Made by a program: the position numbers and the translations under genes. Below the pieces are notes generated by a model that was given only the letters and a program-made list of their open reading frames with translations, ran no database searches and was not told the origin of the DNA. From Roseospira goensis (GTDB taxonomy: Bacteria; Pseudomonadota; Alphaproteobacteria; Rhodospirillales; Rhodospirillaceae): a DNA stretch of 34,806 nucleotides. Shown here piece by piece: positions 17,284 through 34,592 of the stretch (the first letter of the stretch is position 1; each line of letters begins with the position of its first letter). The stretch is from NCBI RefSeq assembly GCF_014197795.1, contig NZ_JACIGI010000036.1, positions 1-34,806 on the forward strand, given 5' to 3'.

Positions 17284-17469
17284 TCAGCCCGCCGGCTCGT
17301 CCTCTTCGACCCGGCCGCTGGTCAGGATGATGGTGATGACCATGATCAACGCGGTCAACGCCAGCACGACGTAGATGATCCACCACTGCTGGAACACGAA
17401 CACGGCCAGATAGCCGAGCAGGCCGGCCAGCGCGACGGCCATGATGAGGATCAGCTTGACGGTAACCAT
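17284..17469 (-). CDS. Small two-helix membrane protein
   Basis: A 61-residue protein starting [20 protein letters not shown]. It has two membrane helices (about 4-24 and 29-52) joined by a short loop with WW, then an acidic tail ([11 protein letters not shown]). A ribosome binding site (AGGGAG) precedes the start at 17469. It is convergent with the histidine kinase (43 bp between stops) and divergent from the DUF1538 operon. I recognise no family. Small proteins like this often modulate larger membrane complexes, but nothing here proves a partner. Confidence 0.7.
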
Positions 17470-17722: not shown

Positions 17723-18457
17723 ATGCGCCATGCTCTCCGGTCCTTCCTGATGCTGCTGCTGGGCGCCCTGCGCGACCTGGCCCCGATCATCCTGGTGATC
17801 GGCTTCTTTCAGGTGGTGGTGTTGCAGCAGCCCCTGCCCGACCCGGTGCCGATCGGCGTCGGCCTCGTCCTGGTGCTGCTGGGCATGGCGCTGTTCGTCC
17901 AGGGCCTGGAGATGGGCCTGTTCCCCCTCGGCGAGTCCATGGCCCATGCCTTCGCCCGCAAGGGCAGCCTGGCCTGGCTGCTGGCCTTCGCCTTTGCCCT
18001 GGGCTTCGGCACGACGGTGGCCGAACCCGCCCTGATCGCGGTGGCCGCGGAGGCCGCCGAGGCGGTGGCGGCGGCCGGCCTGATCGCGTCCGACGCCGAC
18101 AGCCGCGCCACCTATGCCCTGGGGCTACGCTACACCGTGGCCCTGGCCGTCGGGATCGCGATCCTGGTCGGCGTGTTCCGCATCATCAAGGGCTGGCCGG
18201 TGCAGATTCTCATCATCGGCGGATATCTGGTGGTGGTCCTGCTGACCTTCGTGGCCCCGCCGGAGATCGTCGGGGTGGCCTATGATTCGGGCGGCGTGAC
18301 CACCTCCACCATCACCGTCCCGCTGGTCACCGCGCTCGGCGTCGGTCTGGCGACGATGCTGAAGGGGCGCAACCCGCTGATCGACGGCTTCGGCCTGATC
18401 GCCTTCGCCAGCCTGACGCCGATGATGTTCGTGATGCTCTACGGCCTGGTTTACTGA
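17723..18457 (+). CDS. DUF1538 integral membrane protein, first copy
   Basis: A 244-residue protein with about seven hydrophobic helices. It carries the DUF1538 signatures: [27 protein letters not shown], then [20 protein letters not shown] and [18 protein letters not shown]. Glu and Asp residues inside otherwise hydrophobic segments ([14 protein letters not shown]) are the kind of buried acids used for cation binding in transporters, but no substrate is established for the family. It is the first of two paralogous copies followed by a PII-like gene, a CBS gene and a cation antiporter. I start it at the ATG at 17723; the in-frame region upstream to 17441 is low-complexity and not coding. Confidence 0.9.
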
Positions 18458-18484
18458 CGGCCCGACCGGGAAGGACGCCCCGCC

Positions 18485-19276
18485 GTGATCCCGCTGATCC
18501 AGCTCGTCGACACACTGTGGACCACGATCCTGGACGTCGCCCCGATCCTGCTCATCCTGGTGCTGTTCCAGGTGCTGGTCCTGCGCCAGAAGGTGCCGCA
18601 CCTGCGCCGCATGGTGCTGGGCTTCGTCTACGTGGTGCTGGGCCTGGACCTGTTCCTGGTCGGCCTGGAAATGGCCCTGTTCCCGCTCGGCGAGATCATG
18701 GCGCGCCAGCTCACGGCGCCGGCCTTCATGGGCATCGACGCCGCCGGGGCTGTACACCTCGGATGGCGCGACTATCTTTGGGTCTACGCCTTCGCAGCGG
18801 CGGTCGGCTTTTCCACCACCATCGCCGAGCCGGCCTTGATCGCGGTCAGCCTGAAGGTGACCGAAGCGTCGGGCGGTTCGGTGCGGGCCTGGGGGCTGCG
18901 CGTGGCCGTGGCGGTGGGCGTGGCCGTCGGCGTCGCGCTGGGGGCCCTGCGCATTGTCACCGGCTGGTCCTTGCCCTTGCTCATCATCATCGGCTATGTG
19001 GTCGTCATCATCCAGACCCTGGTCGCGCCGCGCCAGATCATCCCGCTCGCCTACGATTCCGGCGGCGTGACCACCTCGACCGTGACGGTGCCGCTGGTCA
19101 CCGCCCTGGGGCTGGGTCTGGCCTCCAACATCCCGGGGCGCAGCCCCCTGCTCGACGGCTTCGGCCTGATCGCGCTGGCCAGCCTGTTCCCCATGATCTC
19201 GGTCATGGGCTACGCGCAGGTGGGGCAGATCCTGGCCCGCCGCGCCGCCCGCCGCCAAGCGCGCGAGGAGTCATGA
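18485..19276 (+). CDS. DUF1538 integral membrane protein, second copy
   Basis: A 263-residue paralogue of the preceding gene. It shares [47 protein letters not shown] and SPLLDGFGLIALASLFPM at matching places. An insertion after the second signature (GIDAAGAVHLGWRDYLWVYA) distinguishes it. It starts with GTG behind GGAAGGAC, 27 bp after the previous stop, and its stop overlaps the PII-like start by ATGA. In other bacteria DUF1538 domains occur as tandem fusions, so the two proteins probably form a heterodimer here. The substrate is unknown. Confidence 0.9.
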   Translation: MIPLIQLVDTLWTTILDVAPILLILVLFQVLVLRQKVPHLRRMVLGFVYVVLGLDLFLVGLEMALFPLGEIMARQLTAPAFMGIDAAGAVHLGWRDYLWVYAFAAAVGFSTTIAEPALIAVSLKVTEASGGSVRAWGLRVAVAVGVAVGVALGALRIVTGWSLPLLIIIGYVVVIIQTLVAPRQIIPLAYDSGGVTTSTVTVPLVTALGLGLASNIPGRSPLLDGFGLIALASLFPMISVMGYAQVGQILARRAARRQAREES

Positions 19277-19623
19277 AGTTTAAGCTCATCATCGCCAGCG
19301 TGGCGGACGACATCACCGACACGGTGGTCGAGGCCGCCCGCACCGAAGGCGCCACCGGCTGCACCGTCATCACCAGCGCGCGCGGTGAGGGCCTGCGCAA
19401 GGCCAAGACGTTCCTGGGCCTCGACCTGACGGGGGCCCGCGACATCGTGCTCATCATCGTCGAGCAGCACCTGGCGCGCCGCATCCTGGAGACGATCGGC
19501 CGGGCCGGGTCGTTCGACGCTCACCCCGGGGCCGGCGTCGCCATCGTCGTTGACGTCGAGGATGCCATCGGCCTGGGCAGCCAGATGCACACCATCCAGA
19601 CCGAGATCGAGGACGAGATATGA
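19273..19623 (+). CDS. Divergent PII-family signalling protein linked to DUF1538
   Basis: A 116-residue protein that follows the PII fold order: strand MKFKLIIASV, helix, strand CTVITSARGEG, a T-loop-like segment (LRKAKTFLGLDLTGARD), strand IVLIIVEQH, helix, then GAGVAIVVDVEDAIGL. Compared with the canonical GlnK at 32865-33203 it lacks the GFGRQKG motif and Tyr51 (Asp here), so uridylylation control is not expected, and its T-loop is shorter. PII proteins bind ATP/ADP and often plug or gate membrane proteins through the T-loop; the operon suggests the DUF1538 pair as partner. Start and stop overlap the neighbours by ATGA on both sides. Confidence 0.85.
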   Translation: MKFKLIIASVADDITDTVVEAARTEGATGCTVITSARGEGLRKAKTFLGLDLTGARDIVLIIVEQHLARRILETIGRAGSFDAHPGAGVAIVVDVEDAIGLGSQMHTIQTEIEDEI

Positions 19624-20054
19624 GCGGCAAACCCTATCGGGCGGTCCGCCAGGTCATGTCGGGCACCCCCTACCTGATCGAGGGCATGGCCACCGTCGCC
19701 GAGGCCGTGCGCCTGATGAAGGACAAGGGGGTCAGTTCGCTGGTCATCCGCAAGCGCCACGACGGCGATGAGTACGGCATGGTGGTCATCCAGGACATCG
19801 CCGACAAGGTCATCGCCCAGGACCGCGCGCCGGACCGGGTCAATGTCTACGAGATCATGAGCAAACCGCTGATCGCCGTGCAGGCGGACATGGACGTCAA
19901 GTATGCCATCCGCCTGCTGGGCCGGTTCCGGCTGTCGCGGGCCATCGTCCTCGACCACGGCGCGTTGGTGGGCATCACCACCTTGCGCGACCTCGTCTTG
20001 GCCCACCTCACCGGCGATGAGACGGTTACCCCGGCGCCCGCGGAGACCACCTGA
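19620..20054 (+). CDS. Two-CBS-domain protein
   Basis: A 144-residue stand-alone CBS pair. The first repeat spans about 8-68 (VRQVMSGTPYLIEGMATVAE, then GVSSLVIRKR, then GMVVIQDIADKVI). The second spans about 75-132 (VNVYEIMSKPLIAVQADMDV, then SRAIVLDHGALVGITTLRDL). Such pairs usually bind adenine nucleotides and regulate an attached or partner protein. Together with the PII-like protein, this gives the operon two potential adenylate sensors. The start overlaps the PII-like stop by ATGA. The next gene starts one base after its stop. Confidence 0.92.
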   Translation: MSGKPYRAVRQVMSGTPYLIEGMATVAEAVRLMKDKGVSSLVIRKRHDGDEYGMVVIQDIADKVIAQDRAPDRVNVYEIMSKPLIAVQADMDVKYAIRLLGRFRLSRAIVLDHGALVGITTLRDLVLAHLTGDETVTPAPAETT

Positions 20055-20055
20055 C

Positions 20056-21051
20056 GTGTTCACGGCCATCGTATTCCTGATCGCGGGCGTCGTGCTGCTG
20101 CCGGTCGCCTCCAACACTCTTGTCAGCGGTGCGGTCGCCCTGTCGGAACGCCTCGGCGTCTCGCCGCTTCTGGTCGCCCTGACGGTGGTGGCCTTCGGCA
20201 CCTCGCTGCCCGAACTCGTGGTCTGCCTGGAGGCCGCCCTGAGCGGTTCCCCGGGGATCGCCGTCGGCAACGTCGTGGGCTCCAACATCGCCAACGTCCT
20301 GCTCATCCTGGGCGCCGCCGCGGTGCTCAAGCCCATCGCCTGCGAACCGCGCGCCTTCCTGCGCGACAGCCTCATCATGGTCGTCACCACGGCGCTGTTC
20401 ATCGGGCTGGCGCTCGGAGGGGTGATCCCGCGTTGGCAGGGCCTGACCATGCTGGGCCTGCTGCTGCTGTTCGTGGTTTATTCCTACTGGCGCGAGTCCC
20501 GCGGCGCGGACGCGGCGGAGGCGCATCTGGCGGAGGTGGAGGAGTTCGAGGGCCTCAAGGACCGCCCCTGGGCGGTCATCATCGGGGCCATCGTGCTGGG
20601 CCTGATCGGCGTCGTGGCCGGGGCCCACCTGCTGGTCGAGGGCGCCGTCGTGATCGCCCGCGCCCTTGGGGTCTCGGAAGAGGTCATCGGGCTGACCATG
20701 GTGGCCCTGGGCACCTCGCTGCCGGAACTCGCCGTCGCGGTCGTGGCGGCGCTGAAGGGCCATTCGGACGTCGCCGTCGGCAACGTGGTCGGCTCCAACA
20801 TCTTCAACATCCTGGCCATCGTCGGCGCGACCGCGGCGGTGATCCCGATCGAGATCCCGCCGCAGATCCTGCGCTTCGACATCTGGGCGATGGCCGCCGT
20901 GTCGGTGCTGATGATCCCGGTCCTGCTCAGCGGGCGGCGCATGGGACGAGGGGAGGCCGCGGGCTTCCTGGTCCTCTACGCCGGCTACACCACCCTGCAG
21001 TACGTCGGCGTGGACCGCGTCTTCGGACCCGTCGCGGCCATGGCCGGCTGA
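20056..21051 (+). CDS. CaCA-family cation antiporter (YrbG-like sodium/calcium exchanger)
   Basis: A 331-residue membrane protein with about ten helices in two inverted halves. Each half has the alpha-repeat signature: AFGTSLPELVVCLEAAL with AVGNVVGSNIANVLLI in the first, and ALGTSLPELAVAVVAALKG with AVGNVVGSNIFNILAI in the second. The Glu in each GTSLPE and the Asn in GSN coordinate the cation in this family. A charged loop (RESRGADAAEAHLAEVEEFEG) links the halves. The start is GTG, one base after the CBS stop. It is the last gene of the operon; linkage to DUF1538, PII-like and CBS proteins suggests controlled cation flux. The ion (calcium, or another) is not fixed by sequence. Confidence 0.9.
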   Translation: MFTAIVFLIAGVVLLPVASNTLVSGAVALSERLGVSPLLVALTVVAFGTSLPELVVCLEAALSGSPGIAVGNVVGSNIANVLLILGAAAVLKPIACEPRAFLRDSLIMVVTTALFIGLALGGVIPRWQGLTMLGLLLLFVVYSYWRESRGADAAEAHLAEVEEFEGLKDRPWAVIIGAIVLGLIGVVAGAHLLVEGAVVIARALGVSEEVIGLTMVALGTSLPELAVAVVAALKGHSDVAVGNVVGSNIFNILAIVGATAAVIPIEIPPQILRFDIWAMAAVSVLMIPVLLSGRRMGRGEAAGFLVLYAGYTTLQYVGVDRVFGPVAAMAG

Positions 21052-32723: not shown

Positions 32724-33203
<480 letters not shown>

Positions 33204-33212
33204 GAGGACCGT

Positions 33213-34592
33213 ATGATGATTCGGACGAAATCCCAGATCGCGCTCGCGGCCGTGGCCGGCGCGGCGGCCGTGGCCCTGGCGGACCCGGCGCTGGCCCAGG
33301 AGGCCGCGGGCGAAGCGGTGGCCGAGCCGGCGGCGCTGCCGGTGTCGGCCGAGACCGCCTACATCTTCAACACGCTCTCGTTCATGATCCACGGCTTCCT
33401 GGTCATGTTCATGGCGGCCGGGTTCGCGATGCTCGAAGGCGGGCTGGTGCGGACCAAGAACACCACCATGCAGATGACCAAGAACATCGGCATCTATTCG
33501 TTCGCCGGCCTGATGTACTGGCTCATCGGCTACAACCTCATGTACAACGGCGTCGGCGACATGGGCGGCTTCTTTGGCATGCCTGGCCCGTGGGGCGCGG
33601 CCGACCCGATCGTCGACGGCGCCTATCAGGGCGACGCCGCCGGCTACGCCGGGGCCTCCGACTGGTTCTTCCAGATGGTGTTCGTCGCCACCACCGCGTC
33701 GATCGTCTCCGGCGTCGTCGCCGAGCGCATCAAGCTGTGGCCGTTCCTGATCTTCGTGATCGTCCTGACCGGCGTGATCTACCCGATCCAGGGCGCCTGG
33801 CAGTGGGGCGGCGGCTGGCTCGCCGACGCCGGCTTCAGCGATTTCGCGGGCTCCACCCTCGTGCACTCCGTGGGCGGCTGGGCCGCGCTGGCCGGCGCCA
33901 TCCTGCTCGGCGCGCGCACCGGCAAGTACGGCCCCGACGGCAAGGTGCACCCGATCCCGGGCGCCAACCTGCCGCTGGCCACGCTGGGCACCTTCATCCT
34001 GTGGCTGGGTTGGTTCGGCTTCAACGGCGGCTCGCAGCTCGCCATGGGCAGCGCCATCGACGTCACCGCCATCGCCACCATCTACATGAACACCAACCTT
34101 GCCGCCGCCGCCGGCGTGACCGTGGCCATGGTGCTGACCCAGGCGATCTACGGCAAGGTCGACCTGACCATGGCGCTGAACGGCGCGCTGGGCGGTCTGG
34201 TCTCGATCACCGCCGAGCCGCTGGCGCCCTCGCCGATCATGGCCATCCTGATCGGCGGCATCGGCGGCGTGCTGGTGGTGCTGGCGGTGCCCACCCTGGA
34301 CAAGCTGAAGATCGACGACGTGGTCGGCGCCATCCCGGTCCACCTGGTGTGCGGCATCTGGGGCACGCTGGCCGTGCCGCTGACCAACAGCGGGGCCAAC
34401 TTCGGCTCCCAGATCCTCGGCATCGTCTCCATCGGCGCCTTCGTCTTCGTGGCCAGCTTCATCGTCTGGTTCGTCCTGAAGATGACCATGGGCATCCGGA
34501 TCTCCGACGAGGAAGAGGCCATCGGCCTCGACAAGGCGGAACTCGGCCTGGAGGCCTATCCCGAGTTCGGACGCGGCTCCCAGGCTCTGTAG
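33213..34592 (+). CDS. amtB: Ammonium transporter AmtB
   Basis: A 459-residue protein. It starts with a signal peptide (MMIRTKSQIALAAVAG... cleavage near ADPALAQ) and an Ala/Glu-rich spacer before the eleven membrane helices. The pore has twin His at about 218 (STLVHSVGGWAAL) and 377 (PVHLVCGIWGTL), and the family motif LGWFGFNGGS. It carries ammonia/ammonium through a trimer, and GlnK binds the cytoplasmic side. The ribosome site is AGGAGGA; the start is one of two adjacent ATG codons. A perfect intrinsic terminator lies 89 bases past the stop. Confidence 0.96.
   Translation: MMIRTKSQIALAAVAGAAAVALADPALAQEAAGEAVAEPAALPVSAETAYIFNTLSFMIHGFLVMFMAAGFAMLEGGLVRTKNTTMQMTKNIGIYSFAGLMYWLIGYNLMYNGVGDMGGFFGMPGPWGAADPIVDGAYQGDAAGYAGASDWFFQMVFVATTASIVSGVVAERIKLWPFLIFVIVLTGVIYPIQGAWQWGGGWLADAGFSDFAGSTLVHSVGGWAALAGAILLGARTGKYGPDGKVHPIPGANLPLATLGTFILWLGWFGFNGGSQLAMGSAIDVTAIATIYMNTNLAAAAGVTVAMVLTQAIYGKVDLTMALNGALGGLVSITAEPLAPSPIMAILIGGIGGVLVVLAVPTLDKLKIDDVVGAIPVHLVCGIWGTLAVPLTNSGANFGSQILGIVSIGAFVFVASFIVWFVLKMTMGIRISDEEEAIGLDKAELGLEAYPEFGRGSQAL

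Follow-up and report, generated by a model that had tools for sequence, protein, structure and literature searches.

The 34,806-nucleotide stretch of Roseospira goensis DNA analysed here (the window; contig NZ_JACIGI010000036.1) contains an operon of five genes, all on the + strand between 17723 and 21051, that encode two DUF1538 membrane proteins, a PII-like protein (PIIL), a two-CBS protein and a CaCA-family antiporter. The five open reading frames (ORFs) lie where the original prediction, made from the nucleotide letters, had placed them, and they are tightly joined: genes 1 and 2 are separated by 27 bp, ATGA overlaps occur at 19273 and 19620, and a single base pair precedes the CaCA gene. 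GC content at third codon positions (GC3) is 0.93 in each of the five frames. The original prediction regarded the whole block as a system in which DUF1538, an unknown transporter or channel, is gated by the PII-like protein and the antiporter balances ions.

The DUF1538 pair and its relation to UmpAB

The product of gene 1 (umpA-like; 17723..18457, + strand, 244 aa) and that of gene 2 (umpB-like; 18485..19276, + strand, 263 aa, GTG start) both matched PF07556 (6.9e-66 and 9.9e-67), scoring 222 and 224.8 bits against a curated cut-off of 22.6. Within NCBIfam, gene 1 was nearest to UmpA (NF041627; 363 bits vs 168.6 to UmpB) and gene 2 to UmpB (NF041628; 325.9 bits vs 213.2 to UmpA). The locus therefore shows the gene order that marks a UmpAB-type antiporter, a UmpA-like gene directly followed by a UmpB-like one. 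UmpAB of Halomonas zhaodongensis, discovered by screening in E. coli KNabc, is reported to form a heterodimer and, in everted vesicles, to exchange Na+(Li+,K+) for H+ in a pH-dependent manner (PMC5484666). The earlier view of DUF1538 as a transporter is thus supported by measured antiport for one pair of the family, and the family can no longer be described as an unknown transporter or channel; by homology, the window pair would have the same antiport activity. The Halomonas and window pairs each consist of two adjacent DUF1538 paralogues, with matching gene order, conserved acids and seven predicted membrane segments. They differ in that UmpAB was studied as two genes, umpA and umpB being the last two of four ORFs on the clone map, and a text search of that paper returned no mention of PII or CBS (PMC5484666). 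UmpAB has been cited in cable bacteria as a salt adaptation (PMC12093952, PMC10030654), and PF07556 is listed among the key families of a growth-pH model (PMC13255231).

An AlphaFold2 model of the window UmpB, built with 90 sequences, reached a mean predicted local distance difference test (pLDDT) score of 93.9. Its helices (4-33, 40-76, 94-113/116-128, 135-159, 163-180, 186-196/201-215 and 221-262) form seven membrane segments, two of which are broken; the breaks fall at E115 of TTIAEPAL and immediately behind D191 of AYDSGG. In UmpA these acids correspond to E101 and D188, which are invariant across 14 divergent domains. Ion antiporters often contain such paired, acid-bearing broken helices. 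The original prediction had singled out the motifs TVAEPAL and AYDSGG, which are indeed present in the window, and its idea that they are putative ion sites is therefore reasonable.

PIIL (19273..19623, + strand, 116 aa) matched PF00543 (8.1e-9) with 36.2 bits against a curated cut-off of 25; in a profile comparison it matched solved PII proteins, of which 3o8w was the best hit (2.9e-5). The window carries a canonical GlnK-type PII gene for comparison, outside the system (32865..33203, + strand; PF00543, 2.8e-32), as predicted, and an ammonium transporter gene (Ammonium_transp; 33213-34592) directly follows it. When the two proteins were aligned by eye, PIIL lacked the GFGRQKG motif and the T-loop tyrosine, with RGEGLRKAKTFLGLDLTGARD in their place. 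The GFGRQKG motif and uridylylated tyrosine that mark the T-loop of the nitrogen-type GlnB/GlnK proteins are therefore missing, in agreement with the earlier conclusion, based on Tyr51 and GFGRQKG, that PIIL is not the nitrogen-cycle PII. Of the four P-II genes in the source genome, two are canonical, one has an intermediate score (56 bits; G000:C30:29924-30205) and the fourth is PIIL (35.5 bits). The T-loop region of PIIL (37-57) is less variable than the remainder of the protein (1.24 vs 1.54 bits in 190 sequences); R37, G38, G40, F47, G49 and L50 are conserved at 93 percent or more.

The fourth gene (19620..20054, + strand, 144 aa) encodes a protein with two CBS stretches by Pfam (PF00571, 4.2e-16), which identifies it as a tandem-CBS protein. 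The S/T-x-x-D pattern is kept by CBS2 in most members, and CBS1 keeps mainly the D. The nearest solved relative is CBS-CP12 (5nmu, 2.1e-22), which binds AMP (PMC9406205). The window protein resembles CBS-CP12 and other tandem-CBS adenylate sensors in its two CBS domains, CBS-CP12 being the closest solved sequence; it differs from CBS-CP12 in lacking the CP12 part, ending shortly after the CBS pair, and in sharing an operon with an antiporter. The fifth gene (20056..21051, + strand, 331 aa, GTG start) encodes a CaCA-family calcium/sodium antiporter (PF01699, Na_Ca_ex, 5.8e-65) that passes TIGR00367 with 235.9 bits (cut-off 179.65). Upstream of umpA, a divergent 61-aa membrane-like ORF (17284-17469, - strand) is kept in 2/10 relatives' regions (L102 and L103) at 80-81 percent identity.

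Conservation of PIIL beside DUF1538 genes

A survey of PF07556 neighbourhoods, the check that the original prediction had proposed, was carried out on 202 loci in four sets: 57 regions on which the profiles were trained (A), 80 named loci that were the best matches of a genome scan (B), 5 Desulfobacterota loci (C) and 60 loci drawn one per family of Gammaproteobacteria, 55 of them eligible (D). Loci were eligible if they had two or more DUF1538 domains and no less than 500 bp of room, and matches were counted downstream on the same strand. Eleven loci were dropped, seven without room and four with a single DUF1538 domain; three of the latter (L110, L132 and L172) were cut by contig ends, and the fourth, L308, is a lone UmpA with PIIL absent from 4.8 kb of room. 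The sample covers Pseudomonadota and Desulfobacterota. PF07556 was found in 126/398 evenly drawn Pseudomonadota genomes (43/213 genera) and in 6/118 Desulfobacterota genomes, and a UmpA-type match in 108/321 Gammaproteobacteria genomes. Among these 321 genomes we obtained none that ties PIIL to the characterised Halomonas umpAB.

PIIL lay within 600 bp downstream in 185/191 eligible loci (A 51/55, B 77/77, C 4/4, D 53/55) and within 2.5 kb in 188/191. Three genomes were met twice across the sets (L123=L261, L116=L120, L062=L163); with the repeats removed, the counts were 182/188 and 185/188, respectively. Sets B-D, which took no part in profile training, gave 134/136 at 600 bp. The linkage of DUF1538 to PIIL is far beyond chance. 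A CBS gene followed in 158/181 loci (A 35/50, B 72/74, C 1/4, D 50/53), so that the survey revealed a PII-like gene, mostly accompanied by CBS, conserved across many families. In the 104 loci longer than 11 kb, CBS was the sole recurrent family within four genes on either side; it occurred in 90 of them, always on the same strand and in 89 at position +1, and the next family reached 15 loci at scattered positions. The block is conserved and its surroundings are not, and the linkage is thus not an inherited neighbourhood. The CaCA gene followed in only 6/170 loci with room (sets A-D: 6/49, 0/70, 0/4 and 0/47), all from the window's genus (G001-G005) or family (G013); we therefore rejected it as a component of the system, contrary to the original prediction, and it is a lineage-specific addition to the operon.

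Six loci depart from the layout with PIIL directly downstream. A transposase gene is inserted between umpB and PIIL in L263, the PIIL-CBS pair lies upstream instead of downstream in L314, and in L086, a double locus, PIIL stands between the two DUF1538 sets. In L079, L082 and L084 PIIL is not nearby, and these genomes carry it on another contig, beside CBS in 2/3. On a separate note, two Methylocystis rosea plasmid records matched, and the one that was opened has the DUF1538-DUF1538-P-II order; in L226 (NZ_CP044330.1) this trio lies on a mobilizable Methylocystis plasmid, adjoining transposase genes.

Some loci encode a longer, fused DUF1538-DUF1538 protein (most frames 571-651 codons). Of 29 such loci, 2 are cut by contig ends; all 27 scorable ones lack a CBS gene and have a pair of PII-like genes downstream. 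Most were chosen for holding a PIIL match; the first PII is therefore partly a selection effect, which does not apply to the second PII or to the missing CBS. Of the 27, 8 helped to train the second-PII profile. The second PII stands where CBS is missing, which suggests that the two do similar work. Two Desulfobacterota loci, L242 and L243, extend the series: a fused transporter of 706-713 aa is directly followed by one protein of 369-381 aa with three PII-like segments (L242:4327-5433; L243:4391-5533). The segments matched the PIIL profile at 92.2, 97.5 and 95.9 percent in hhalign, and 60 column-shuffled controls gave at most 3.8; single-sequence Pfam searches found one weak P-II match in one of the two proteins and none in the other. 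If these matches are right, the protein may be a covalent PII trimer, with all three units in a single chain.

A proposed PII-controlled antiporter and its alternatives

We propose, with a probability of about 0.6, that the locus encodes a UmpAB-type cation/proton antiporter under the control of a dedicated PII-family protein, usually together with a two-CBS protein, the four genes forming the core. The original prediction thus had the outline right, and erred in calling the transporter unknown and in including CaCA. In the proposed mechanism, the products of genes 1 and 2 would form a heterodimeric monovalent cation/proton antiporter of the UmpAB type. A PIIL trimer would dock on its cytoplasmic side via the conserved T-loop region and, depending on a bound small molecule, would switch or throttle its ion exchange. 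The CBS protein would be a second sensor, probably of the AMP type; the Na+/Ca2+ exchanger, which has been added to the operon in the window lineage, would draw on the Na+ gradient. For PIIL itself we infer the trimer, the docking, the direction of gating and the ligands.

The proposal borrows from known PII-transporter pairs, which act by direct contact: GlnK blocks Amt (PMC3198391) and SbtB locks SbtA (PMC10710835). By analogy, binding of PIIL would alter the rate of UmpAB, much as GlnK controls AmtB. The likeness to GlnK-AmtB lies in a PII-family gene that adjoins the gene of its presumed target transporter, and the window itself has such a pair at 32865-34592; the differences are another transporter family, another T-loop and a ligand site that is not conserved in PIIL. 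SbtB, which inhibits the cyanobacterial bicarbonate transporter SbtA, resembles PIIL in being a divergent PII-like protein dedicated to a transporter with Na+ involved; its match to the PIIL profile is weak (E about 0.5) and confined to residues 5-44, and SbtA belongs to another family.

Several observations weigh against the proposal. Gene linkage is no proof of contact between PIIL and UmpAB, and the CBS gene is absent from 23/181 loci. Both window proteins fall below the NCBI equivalog cut-offs (363 vs 490 bits for UmpA, 325.9 vs 500 for UmpB), and we therefore classify the pair as DUF1538 proteins homologous to UmpAB rather than as the equivalog. In E. coli, UmpAB was sufficient to restore salt tolerance in the absence of PIIL (PMC5484666); transport therefore does not require PIIL, which would be a modifier rather than part of the engine. 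In the alignment, GDGKIF and RIRTGE of GlnK face PGAGVAI and GLGSQM of PIIL, and the basic ATP-phosphate residues (K90, R101 and R103 in canonical numbering) are missing; the profile alignment of 61 sequences shows a comparable loss. PIIL thus lacks residues with which canonical PII contacts ATP phosphates and 2-oxoglutarate, and the adenine-nucleotide sensing assumed by the original prediction is weakened by the loss of the ATP-phosphate residues. Some PIIL genes, moreover, are not linked to DUF1538. In family f73 (L206, L207 and L209) the PIIL-CBS pair and the DUF1538 pair lie on different contigs; in L207 a malic enzyme-phosphotransacetylase fusion gene precedes the PIIL-CBS pair. Magnetococcales-like genomes (L210, L211, L212 and L223; also L208 and L213-L216) have extra PIILs away from DUF1538, several beside genes for electron-transfer flavoprotein-ubiquinone oxidoreductase (ETF-QO) and SH3-domain proteins, and genome G062 has a PIIL without any DUF1538 match. 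When 13 PIILs not adjacent to DUF1538 were compared with the 190 sequences from DUF1538 loci (L088 5556-5912 being counted as linked), the unlinked proteins mostly kept the same T-loop residues. The T-loop comparison thus gives no specific indication that UmpAB is the target, and we rejected it as proof of docking.

The missing ligand residues might instead mean that PIIL is a constitutive structural or assembly subunit, a fixed scaffold of the antiporter with no ligand-gated switch, in which case the CBS protein may or may not sense nucleotides. Its near-obligatory linkage would agree with such a role, as would a fixed stoichiometry of two or three PII domains per fused transporter; we consider this unlikely, as UmpAB works in E. 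coli without PIIL (PMC5484666) and the other known PII-transporter pairs are regulatory (PMC10710835). Still less probable in our judgement is that PIIL and CBS are merely co-expressed with the antiporter in a shared stress or energy response and act on other targets. The separate PIIL-CBS pair of f73 and the additional Magnetococcales-like PIILs beside ETF-QO and SH3 genes would suit that explanation, but no other neighbour is conserved, and the linkage persists through DUF1538 fusions and duplications. We give a similarly low weight to the idea, hinted at in the original prediction, that the pair in this lineage moves another substrate under PII control, such as a divalent ion or bicarbonate. 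Against it, the higher-scoring Ump model for each protein is that of the corresponding subunit, no variation is seen at the acidic sites, and many named hosts of the loci are marine; the UmpA cut-off of 490, moreover, was reached by none of the 108 matched Gammaproteobacteria genomes (0/321 searched), which suggests that only proteins closely related to the Halomonas one pass it.

Going beyond control of UmpAB by PIIL, we tentatively entertain, at somewhat less than even odds, that this is a third widespread PII-transporter pair. PII would directly gate a monovalent cation/proton antiporter and read a ligand other than the canonical pair of ATP and 2-oxoglutarate, coupling salt and pH homeostasis to metabolism, and evolution would have tried several sensor complements: one PII with CBS, two PIIs, or one chain of three PII domains that acts as a covalent trimer. 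In the open PMC literature, subscription papers and preprints being outside that scope, no paper joining PII to DUF1538 was found. As far as the searches reach, no earlier pairing of a PII-family protein with this class of transporter has been described.

The established roles of PII proteins lie chiefly in sensing nitrogen and carbon. If the proposal is true, a PII devoted to a Na+/H+ antiporter would add ion and pH homeostasis to these roles, in a system present in about a third of the sampled Gammaproteobacteria (108/321, by UmpA-type match). The natural three-domain PII protein would be a tool for studying PII symmetry, an orphan PII branch would gain a concrete target, and the little-studied UmpAB would gain a candidate regulator.

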